DNA from: Omnitrophica WOR_2 bacterium RIFCSPHIGHO2_02_FULL_48_11
Lineage (GTDB): Bacteria > Omnitrophota > Gorgyraeia > Zapsychrales > GWA2-47-8
Assembly: GCA_001805615.1 (NCBI GenBank)
Contig: MHGP01000032.1
Coordinates: forward strand, 1 to 32,809
Direction: 5' to 3'
DNA length: 32,809 nucleotides
The stretch's first letter is position 1, and every line of letters starts with the position of its first letter. The translations under genes were made by a program, and so were the position numbers. Below, piece by piece: positions 29,811 through 32,809 of this stretch. The notes below the pieces were generated by a model, which was not told the DNA's origin, ran no database searches, and worked only from the letters and a program-made list of their open reading frames with translations.

Positions 29811-32027
29811 TCAGCGAGAAGACAAATGTGCAGCCAAAACACCTTGGTCCACTAAGGCTTCATGAATTTTTTTCCCATATTTCTTCGATAATTGATTTGC
29901 TTCACTTTGGATTTTATCTAATCGTCCTGCCGGATTAATAAGTACGCCGCTCAAATCCACCTTCTTCTGTGCTATTTCCCAAAAGCACCGTTCGCCCACC
30001 AAATCAGCGATAAGAACCTGTCCCACTAATGTCTTTTTATATTGGCAGTTCTCTCCCAAATAATGCTTAACAGAGGCAAAATTGGTAAAAATGATAACCT
30101 TGCCTGTTGTTTTACTGTATGAACTTCTCTGATGCGGTTCTCTTGTTTCCATATCAAAATCCGGATCACTAAACATACCCTGTCTGTTTTTCTCATCCTC
30201 CTCTTCTTTTGATCGAACCCTAATCTCTAAAAGCGCAACGCATGATCCGAACTCAGCAGTAATGATAGCGTCCTGTCCAGGCCCATCACCCCAAACTTCA
30301 AGTTCGTATTTCACAACCTGTCTAATAGCTTCGCGATCATTAATCACAATTTTATCTTTGGAGACATGTACTGTGTTATTGTCTGATGTGATACTAACTT
30401 CACTCCCCCCTTCAATCATTTTGACATAAACAAGCAAATTAACTTTTCGTGGCTGATTGGGTCGCAGTGTTATACTCTCAGGCGCAAAAACCATACCCTC
30501 CTGATATAAAAATTCCTTTTCCGGGACCACATGTACTCTAACCTGGGACAACTTATTTCCTACCGAGGCAGTTATAGCACCCTCGATATTAGGCTCAAGG
30601 CCTTCAATAGTAATATATTTATGCAAGACATCTCCTGTTTCACCTCTATCATCGACCAACAGCTTAATCTCGGATGTAATCACTCGGATTTTAGGATTAG
30701 AAGACAATATCTTAACATTTGATCCTCTATTAACCACCCTGGTATTCGCCCTCAATTCAAAATTATAACGCTTCCCAACGGTTATCTCAGCAGAAGAGGG
30801 GTATAAGCAAAAACCGTTTGGAGGGAGCTCCTCCTCTTTGGTTAAGTCTTGTCCTAAATTTTTAATCTCCTCTGCTTCCTCCTCAGCGATCTTATTTAAA
30901 ATAGAAAAGGCTTTTCTATAACGAGTTGTTTCCTCCCGATCAAACTTATTCTGATCCTCTTTTTGTTTACGGGCCCTTTCTTCTTGAACGCTAATTTCCA
31001 GCCGCCTTTCAATCTCTGCAATAAGTTTCTGACAAAACGGATGACGCGCAACAAGACCATTTCTTTCTTCATCAAGGACCGGCTCCTCATTCTCCAATAG
31101 TTCTCGGAATCGATCGATCCGAATCTCCCCGAAAAATCTGGCCGCCAAAGGTTCATTATCGTACTTAAACAAAGATATACCTAAAACCGCATTCTTGCCA
31201 TCAACCAAAAGCAACCCACCGTCACGATCATCCCCTGTCTGCATGAGTTCTTTATCAGCGCGAGAAAGAACAAAATGAATTGGAAAATTTCCATATTTAC
31301 CATAAGTAATAAAGAAATCTTGTTTCATTATCTCCTTACCGGGGGGCATTTGATAACGTATCAAACGAGGTTCTCCGGTATTCGTATCAGCGTCTAAAAG
31401 AAATGCTTTTCTTGAAGGATTAGTCATGATCTTTCGAAGAAAAGCATTATTTGTCAATTCTCCTTGTACTGTGTTAAGACGCGGGACAACTCCTGCTGTT
31501 CTTTGGGGATCCACTTTAAAATAAGCTATAGTCCCATTTCTGTCGATTTTATGTTCATTTCTTATCTTAGAATTGGCGGGTATCGGATCATTAATAGAGT
31601 ACATAGGTTTGTCATCTTTAATGAAAATCCTACATTCCACAAATTGATTGTCCTTAAAAGTACAGATTCGCCCATCTACCATACCCGCTAAAGCATCCTT
31701 GGCGCCTTGCCCAAAATAGCCGCGTACTCCTTTGCCTGCCTTAAGACCGCTGGTTGCCGCTCCATATCGTTTAAAATTATTACGCACATCATCAATTGAC
31801 ATACCTTCTTCATAATCCCTTACGGCAAAGATTCCACAATAGCCGTCTTTTTTATAAACAATATCGATCTGTCCTTTTGCTTCTTTTTGTCCCTCTTCTA
31901 GTCTAATGTAACTATCATCGGCATTAGTAATTAATTCGACTAAGGCACGTATCGCATTGCCCTGCATTGCAGTTCTTATACGTCGAACGGTATGCCTGGG
32001 ATCAACTTCTATTATTCCCTGTTCCAT
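29811..32027 (-). CDS. GHKL (Hsp90/MutL/MORC-like) ATPase with Ig-like domains, probable defence protein
   Basis: A 738-residue protein. The N-terminal GHKL ATPase has the N box ELITNADDS (E31, N35, D37/38), the ATP-lid Asp-Gly motif RDYEEGM (D71, G75), and the glycine loop GKGVRGYFGQGAKDA (about 98-112). A second fold element continues to about 330, then a charged helical linker (about 340-400). Two regions, roughly 415-515 and 520-640, read as beta-sandwich/Ig-like (for example PSSAEITVGKRYNFELRA and PESITLRPNQPRKVNLLV). A small C-terminal alpha/beta domain follows (about 660-738). The ATG at 32027 is chosen because AGGGGGGT lies five bases upstream; an upstream in-frame start would overlap the previous gene. 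GHKL ATPases of this kind occur in restriction-like and other defence operons (paraMORC type); family placement is inferred. Confidence 0.8.
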   Translation of the reverse strand: MEQGIIEVDPRHTVRRIRTAMQGNAIRALVELITNADDSYIRLEEGQKEAKGQIDIVYKKDGYCGIFAVRDYEEGMSIDDVRNNFKRYGAATSGLKAGKGVRGYFGQGAKDALAGMVDGRICTFKDNQFVECRIFIKDDKPMYSINDPIPANSKIRNEHKIDRNGTIAYFKVDPQRTAGVVPRLNTVQGELTNNAFLRKIMTNPSRKAFLLDADTNTGEPRLIRYQMPPGKEIMKQDFFITYGKYGNFPIHFVLSRADKELMQTGDDRDGGLLLVDGKNAVLGISLFKYDNEPLAARFFGEIRIDRFRELLENEEPVLDEERNGLVARHPFCQKLIAEIERRLEISVQEERARKQKEDQNKFDREETTRYRKAFSILNKIAEEEAEEIKNLGQDLTKEEELPPNGFCLYPSSAEITVGKRYNFELRANTRVVNRGSNVKILSSNPKIRVITSEIKLLVDDRGETGDVLHKYITIEGLEPNIEGAITASVGNKLSQVRVHVVPEKEFLYQEGMVFAPESITLRPNQPRKVNLLVYVKMIEGGSEVSITSDNNTVHVSKDKIVINDREAIRQVVKYELEVWGDGPGQDAIITAEFGSCVALLEIRVRSKEEEDEKNRQGMFSDPDFDMETREPHQRSSYSKTTGKVIIFTNFASVKHYLGENCQYKKTLVGQVLIADLVGERCFWEIAQKKVDLSGVLINPAGRLDKIQSEANQLSKKYGKKIHEALVDQGVLAAHLSSR

Positions 32028-32032
32028 GATAT

Positions 32033-32040
32033 ACCCCCCT
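32033..32040 (-). promoter_or_regulatory. Ribosome binding site fixing the start of the GHKL ATPase
   Basis: AGGGGGGT on the minus strand lies five bases before the ATG at 32027 and overlaps the TAG stop of the upstream gene. It decides the start: the longer frame beginning at 32087 would extend 49 bases into the upstream gene. Confidence 0.7.
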
Positions 32041-32674
32041 ATTCTGTTCCAATGTCGAGAAATTGAGTGAATCGTTGTTCCAGCCAATTAAAAAAATCCA
32101 AAAGGTTTCTCTGCTTAAGTTCATGAGCATACTTTTGTAATAAAAAGAAATTCTCTTTCAGCATTTTACGATCCGAATTTAACGTTCCCTGGAGCATATC
32201 GCAAAGATCACCCTCGGAAATCGAATCATTTTGCTTCTCAATATATTTTAAATACGCAGTAGATGACATTGCTTCCTTGAGGAGCAATTCTTCCCTTCTT
32301 GTTTTGGATGGTGACTTTTTCACAACCTGATACTGTCCTCTCAAAATATCTTCCACCTCTTTTATATGTGCCCGCCCTCTTTCAGTGACAACAAATCCCT
32401 GTTTTATTTTTCCGCTCAGCCATGGTTTGACCTTAGATGTAAGGCGCCAAAGACATTTCATCACTCGATTTGCATCCGGATAATCAGGAAATCCCAATAA
32501 TGAAAATTTCTGAGGAAATAATTTAAAACTAGCCATAACAGCGTTTTCAAAGGATAATTCTGCTCCTATTTTTTCTAATTGACTTATTGCATATATAGCT
32601 AAACGATCGAGGTCAATATCTTCATATTTGCTTAAATCCACAGTTTGCAATCTTAGAATCTCCTCTCGCCCCAT
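32039..32674 (-). CDS. Winged-helix-like protein of unknown function, partner of the GHKL ATPase
   Basis: A 211-residue protein with no signal peptide or membrane helix. Residues about 20-110 look like a winged-helix region: helix DLDRLAIYAISQLEKIGAEL, a second helix NAVMASFKLFPQKF, a helix DANRVMKCLWRLTSKV, then a beta-wing-like VTERGRAHIKEVEDIL. The C-terminal half (about 120-211) is helical and charged and ends LEQRFTQFLDIGTE. AAGGGA lies six bases before the ATG. It ends 11 bases before the ATPase gene, so the two are co-transcribed and probably work together, as DNA-recognition or regulatory partner. I recognise no named family. Confidence 0.8.
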   Translation of the reverse strand: MGREEILRLQTVDLSKYEDIDLDRLAIYAISQLEKIGAELSFENAVMASFKLFPQKFSLLGFPDYPDANRVMKCLWRLTSKVKPWLSGKIKQGFVVTERGRAHIKEVEDILRGQYQVVKKSPSKTRREELLLKEAMSSTAYLKYIEKQNDSISEGDLCDMLQGTLNSDRKMLKENFFLLQKYAHELKQRNLLDFFNWLEQRFTQFLDIGTE

Positions 32675-32696
32675 TGATAGTCCCTTCTCTTATTTT

Positions 32697-32809
32697 TTAT
32701 CCCACCCAAAAAATTTTTATATCTTGCTCAACAACTCTAAACTCTTTATCCGCTGTAACGAGTTCTCCCTTCTTTAATTTTGCCAAAGCAGCAACAAAGC
32801 AATCAACGT
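32697..32809 (-). CDS. PIN-domain (VapC-like) protein, C-terminal fragment
   Basis: The frame from the window edge to the TAA at 32697-32699 encodes about 37 residues: VDCFVAALAKLKKGELVTAD, then KEFRVVEQDIKIFWVG. This is the C-terminus of a PIN-domain ribonuclease: Asp in DCFVAALA and Asp in TADKEF are the third and fourth metal-binding positions. It ends 22 bases before the winged-helix gene. PIN proteins are mostly toxins of type II toxin-antitoxin pairs; the antitoxin would lie outside the window. Too short for reliable subfamily assignment. Confidence 0.8.
   Translation of the reverse strand, partial: VDCFVAALAKLKKGELVTADKEFRVVEQDIKIFWVG

Follow-up and report, generated by a model that had tools for sequence, protein, structure and literature searches.

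The right end of a 32,809-nucleotide Omnitrophota contig carries two adjacent genes, encoding a winged-helix protein (WH) and a GHKL ATPase, which almost certainly form a real two-gene module that is rare and patchy in its distribution. Together with a linked VapBC-type gene, the pair probably belongs to a defence or conflict system that is not yet described. The explanation that best covers the whole locus, to which we give a probability of roughly 45%, is an acquired two-gene conflict module, probably anti-phage or anti-plasmid, which here has a VapBC-type locus upstream.

The locus and its two proteins

The DNA analysed (the window) is an entire contig of a 2.0 Mb genome that is 86% complete in 95 contigs. 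The genes form a co-directional minus-strand set at the right end of the contig, running from the PIN gene through WH and GHKL to addA, addB, and housekeeping genes. Their features are as follows:

29811..32027, minus strand: GHKL ATPase gene, 738 aa (ATG at 32027, stop at 29811)
29847..30077, minus strand: C-terminal helical domain of the ATPase, ~aa 651–727 (low-confidence model)
30216..30494, minus strand: second Ig-like domain, aa 512–604 (AlphaFold2 model and fold match)
30525..30815, minus strand: first Ig-like (Big_2-like) domain, aa 405–501 (AlphaFold2 block, pLDDT mostly 65–88)
31704..31721, minus strand: G2 box, G103-xx-G106-x-G108, invariant in three copies
31800..31817, minus strand: G1 box, D71-xxx-G75-M76, with G75 and M76 invariant in three copies
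31914..31937, minus strand: N box, E31-xxx-N35-xx-D38, invariant in the window, Cloacimonadota, and G276 copies
32039..32674, minus strand: WH gene, 211 aa, without Pfam or PADLOC family
32477..32527, minus strand: WH signature F-K-x-F-P-x-K-F-S...Y-P, aa 50–66, conserved in three copies
32697..32809, minus strand: 3' end of a VapC-type PIN gene, truncated by the contig end

The PIN-domain gene reported to adjoin the pair is confirmed. Just its last 36 codons are present (stop at 32699–32697) before it leaves the contig at 32809, and they are recognisable as VapC by identity to the VapCs of two other Omnitrophota genomes (G005 and G123), which are complete and pass the PIN cut-off. A PIN-WH-GHKL operon is likely because the intergenic gaps measure 22 bases (PIN/WH) and 11 bases (WH/GHKL), the latter as originally given. 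A strong ribosome site (AGGGGGG) precedes the ATG of the GHKL frame; an alternative TTG start at 32087 is unlikely and would overlap WH.

The module is compositionally foreign and was probably horizontally acquired. At 0.397, its GC content lies below the average of 0.481 (SD 0.014) for equal-sized segments of the remaining window, and its GC3 of 0.33–0.34 compares with 0.50–0.63 in neighbouring genes, in agreement with the original prediction of an AT-rich locus. Similarly, its dinucleotide distance is 123, compared with 64 or less for the other equal window segments. The original prediction also placed the locus beside AddAB and called this a typical insertion neighbourhood; the adjacency is true, but the second point fails as evidence. 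Inside the window, the neighbours of the pair are housekeeping genes only, addA and addB included.

The ATPase consists of a GHKL domain (~aa 1–175, beginning at ~aa 14), a middle or transducer region with long helices to ~aa 400, two Ig-like domains, and a C-terminal helical domain. Its N, G1, and G2 boxes are intact, as had been claimed from the sequence alone, and an NGT motif follows them in order at residues 164–166. Specifically, E31, N35, D38, G75, G103, G106, G108, G165, and T166 are invariant among three divergent relatives. The Pfam HATPase_c match is sub-threshold (E 0.0065, below the gathering score), and no NCBIfam or PADLOC model matches the protein. PDB sequence searches with the window proteins gave no useful match, and the ATPase is unlike characterised chaperone and repair proteins, none of which was found to be close; strong similarity to one of these would have counted against the original prediction.

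The AlphaFold2 model of the ATPase was built on a shallow alignment of three sequences and has an overall pLDDT of 47, with aa 405–604 as its sole well-predicted stretch and values below 50 for aa 171–373, the region checked for an S5 domain. Because confidence is low in the GHKL part of the model, the transducer, dimer, and C-terminal folds are only putative. Within the well-predicted stretch, VIA-align gives the Ig-like part a Z of 10.3 to SbsC and 9.6 to Big_2-CBM56, and in fold comparison the tandem sandwiches resemble SbsC, Big_2, intimin, and similar domains. In G123, whose GHKL is only distantly related, the equivalent stretch matches the curated Big_2 profile (E 3e-9), and the two beta-sandwich regions first proposed are, as such, real. 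The C-terminal helical domain is 48% identical in Cloacimonadota and 90% in G005, where it is mostly kept in a remnant of the gene.

The WH model (pLDDT 80) combines a winged helix (aa 13–120) with a helical C-terminal part (aa 124–206), and structurally it comes closest to DNA-binding proteins of archaea and viruses and to the winged helix of MukF: AF1382 (Z 9.7 over 86 residues, rmsd 2.7), SSV1 F-93 (Z 8.9), and MukF (Z 8.5). Foldseek by itself is weak (E above 0.1). The predicted fold is a winged helix (wHTH), and since Z stays below 10 it is the fold alone that the model supports. WH has no family in Pfam, PADLOC, or PHROG, and it was indeed introduced as an unrecognised winged-helix-like partner. 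Its single NCBIfam match, MukB, is at chance level (E 0.029), an Orbi_VP5 hit was also judged chance, and matches in Vibrio phages (E 5e-3), inside a protein annotated as virion RNA polymerase, were disregarded.

Distribution of the pair and its link to VapBC

We sought relatives by a scan of genome contigs and by searching the genomes of 384 Omnitrophota and 124 Cloacimonadota. Every clear WH relative found has a GHKL gene beside it, and the pair is present at five loci of different lineages, namely the window, a Cloacimonadota locus (L009), the Omnitrophota genomes G276 and G123, and a conjugative plasmid of Ensifer. The Cloacimonadota copy is made up of an additional gene, p1, followed by WH and GHKL, with 43–45% identity to the window across both genes, and G276 encodes p1, WH, and a GHKL that is shorter and shows no Ig domain. 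G123, a member of another Omnitrophota class, carries VapB, VapC, GHKL with Big_2, and WH; this copy may be decaying because its GHKL frame has one in-frame stop ahead of the C-terminal part. The Ensifer plasmid carries a 75-aa gene, GHKL, and WH, the last two overlapping by 4 nt. The 75-aa gene (L047, 11770–11997) lies directly upstream of GHKL, has no relatives in the loci fetched, and may be a third component.

Two gene orders are therefore found, WH-GHKL in the window, Cloacimonadota, and G276 and GHKL-WH in G123 and Ensifer. The WH proteins of these two sets are homologous (hhalign 96%, E 3.6e-9), and the WH signature can be made out in G123 and less clearly in Ensifer. The GHKL proteins of the window and of G123/Ensifer have a modest link over the ATPase domain and its boxes (hhalign 67%, E 5e-5). 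A neighbourhood survey had been proposed for the pairing with WH, which proves to be conserved across phyla and gene orders.

The module is rare. WH is found at E below 1e-6 in 3 of 384 Omnitrophota, there is one clear case in the 124 Cloacimonadota, and the class to which G123 belongs has it in 1 of 49; weak WH matches in G297 (L006) and G473 (L017) were left out. Among 92 relatives, GHKL occurs only in the window genome and as the remnant in G005. Comparisons of the window proteins with plasmids and phages (tblastn) and with viral contigs returned no full-length relative, and no WH was recognised beside a Rhizobium match of the G276 GHKL.

One VapC family lies upstream of the module, on the same strand and with short gaps, in three Omnitrophota lineages (window, G005, and G123), and the PIN linkage first noted thus recurs with one specific family. 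The 36-aa end of the window VapC is 62% identical to the G005 VapC and 47% to that of G123, and the linked VapCs are 47–62% mutually identical; 8 other PIN genes of these genomes have no such similarity. G123 has three PIN genes and G005 six. Two loci have a complete VapBC, with VapB found in G005 and G123. A PIN neighbour at two of five independent loci has P ~2e-4, given few loci and a rough assumed chance of 0.4% per locus, and judging from these comparisons a chance linkage of VapC to the module is unlikely. VapBC is absent at three of six loci (Cloacimonadota, G276, and Ensifer) and so is not essential to WH-GHKL.

G005 belongs to the same taxonomic order as the window genome but to another family. 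In it, VapB and VapC are followed by a 98-aa ORF that fuses the first WH codons to the last part of GHKL; at the DNA level this GHKL part has 84% identity, and the two parts overlap by 3 bases where they meet. The simplest reading would be a single precise deletion of ~2.6 kb in a window-like VapC-WH-GHKL operon. The other neighbours of the G005 module differ from those of the window, which supports mobility. Beside the deleted module, we also noted by eye a Y1-type (REP) transposase-like gene and an ERCC4-like nuclease gene (L003, 268–801 and 801–1482).

Possible roles of the pair

As a best guess from gene context, a defence or conflict role for the module is reasonably likely. Two of the five WH-GHKL loci with a readable neighbourhood have defence genes nearby: G276, in an island with SIR2 PDC-S21, PDC-M45A/B/C, and a BbrUII-type GHKL, and Ensifer, where UzuA and a type II methyltransferase are encoded close by. 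At the other three loci (window, Cloacimonadota, and G123) the surrounding genes are ordinary ones. Neither WH nor GHKL has a PADLOC match, and no description of the pair was found in the literature searched, which had few subscription papers; the original statement that no named defence system is matched stands.

In the mechanism we propose, the GHKL domain would dimerise on ATP like MutL, MORC, or GyrB and close a clamp on DNA, with WH as a dedicated DNA-binding and loading partner, while arms and dimer contacts would come from the Ig-like domains and the C-terminal helices. The pair would most likely hold or silence invader DNA or signal its presence, actions that are favoured because no nuclease is recognisable in either protein, and VapC, where present, may add RNA cleavage and dormancy or addiction. 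The ATP-gated DNA clamp is a tentative proposal, and gating of VapC by the pair is doubtful. The most explicit version is unlikely to hold in full; in it, a MORC/SMCHD1-like GHKL with Ig-like arms and a WH loader would clamp and silence foreign DNA uncut, and in Omnitrophota would share one operon with VapBC growth arrest.

Toxin–antitoxin pairs commonly stabilise mobile segments, and VapBC could be a mere addiction passenger or neighbour on such a segment, with WH-GHKL acting alone, as the three loci that have the pair without VapBC would suggest. This is somewhat unlikely, however, given that the same VapC family stands at short spacing upstream of the pair in three lineages, a distant class among them.

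Control of VapC or of a wHTH repressor by GHKL proteins has precedents in immunity, namely vapKSC and CapK-CapS (Chambers et al. 2026, PMC13373217), and these make the present combination plausible. In one reading, infection or DNA damage is detected by the pair, which then frees or activates VapC in a vapKSC-like manner, with GHKL as sensor or switch. The recurrent same-strand VapC family upstream in three Omnitrophota lineages favours it, as does published vapKSC (PMC13373217), in which VapC is linked to an antitoxin and a GHKL kinase; there too, a VapC-type PIN toxin and one more small protein are encoded alongside a GHKL protein. By contrast, the third protein in the window is a winged helix rather than a STAS antitoxin, and GHKL is a large protein of 738 aa with Ig domains and a MutL/MORC-like layout. 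WH-GHKL also occurs without VapC in Cloacimonadota, G276, and Ensifer, and in G005 and G123 a VapB of its own already accompanies VapC, so we regard this reading as unlikely.

The pair might instead be regulatory, with WH as a transcription factor and GHKL as its controlling ATPase or kinase, as CapK-CapS are for neighbouring immune operons (PMC13373217). The wHTH fold of WH, the immune genes beside some copies, and p1, which is also of DNA-binding type and precedes the pair in two copies, are consistent with this. However, CapS is a STAS-wHTH and CapK an HTH-STAS-GHKL protein, and both depend on STAS domains, for which Pfam gives no hit in WH or GHKL, the WH model being a winged helix plus helices. 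Since vapKSC and CapK-CapS both rest on STAS, WH-GHKL is not a member of either. Furthermore, no conserved operon to control lies downstream in the window, Cloacimonadota, or Ensifer, and a regulatory role is more unlikely still. Finally, a housekeeping repair or chaperone pair tied to AddAB, suggested by the adjacent addA, is very improbable and already contradicted, with AddA present in 16 of 19 relatives against the GHKL distribution given above, flanks upstream of addA that differ between relatives, foreign composition, and a related pair on a conjugative plasmid.

Known systems and GHKL genes elsewhere

The preferred reading, an acquired conflict module, comes close to MORC/paraMORC GHKL ATPases, which occur in prokaryotic conflict and restriction-modification operons (Iyer et al. 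2008, PMC2292703). In both cases a large protein of several domains begins with a GHKL domain whose motifs are intact, the distribution is patchy, and some copies lie in defence islands, but the window protein has Ig-like domains and a helical tail in place of nuclease or TIR extensions, as well as a dedicated WH partner. Prokaryotic MORC-like ATPases are common in conflict operons; a compact pair of one such ATPase and a DNA-binding-type partner, occurring in Omnitrophota and as far away as a conjugative plasmid of a rhizobium, would offer an uncomplicated system for distinguishing DNA trapping, signalling, and regulation. If it acts in defence, it adds a family missed by PADLOC (2023 release).

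Other known systems are more distant. Shedu with GHKL (VcSduA, paraMORC3; PMC12137116) carries a C-terminal DUF4263 nuclease, but neither DUF4263 nor any Shedu model is matched by the window proteins in Pfam or PADLOC. MzaA/MzaB of MZA and BbrUII-type GHKL restriction enzymes are resembled only by the G276 neighbours; neither is matched by the window proteins. RIIA-like phage proteins share 31% identity over ~125 aa of the GHKL domain (E only 1e-3), with no similarity found beyond the ATPase domain, and the phage hits are only to RIIA-like ATPase N-termini. PDC-M33, a PADLOC candidate of GHKL plus DUF6339, has a different GHKL family and the same p1 family upstream in haloarchaeal plasmids; its M33A/C models do not match the window GHKL or WH, and no DUF6339 gene is seen beside them.

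p1 (338–352 aa) precedes the pair in Cloacimonadota and G276, has a haloarchaeal relative annotated as ribbon-helix-helix, and was not found in the window genome (86% complete) or G005. It is a recurrent upstream partner of conflict GHKL genes. For example, it precedes GHKL-like genes in G085 and G233 and, on Halobaculum and Haloplanus plasmids, a PDC-M33A-type GHKL beside DISARM genes; in two other plasmids it precedes non-GHKL genes. We keep p1 out of the core module because the G085 and G233 GHKLs have no detectable relationship to the window ATPase (hhalign 0.1%).

In the haloarchaeal plasmids, p1, the PDC-M33A GHKL, and a DUF6339 gene lie between DISARM DrmC and DrmMII (L012, 9001–13662; L014, 8869–13677), and the Haloplanus copy of this GHKL is split. 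In G085 (L044, 2095–13498), an island with an AriA/OLD-like ATPase, a cytosine methylase, and a Vsr gene includes p1 together with a GHKL-like protein of 848 aa that may have a zinc ribbon. In the G276 island, the second GHKL, of BbrUII type, comes directly after a protein that combines an RpoA-CTD, a sigma-70 region 4 resembling that of MzaA and RpoS, and a HARE-like end (L007, 5212–8463); the two look like a separate conflict pair. A DUF2130-like gene comes after the GHKL genes both in G276 (L007, 8603–10093, Pfam hit) and in G085 (L044, 6448–7713, by eye).
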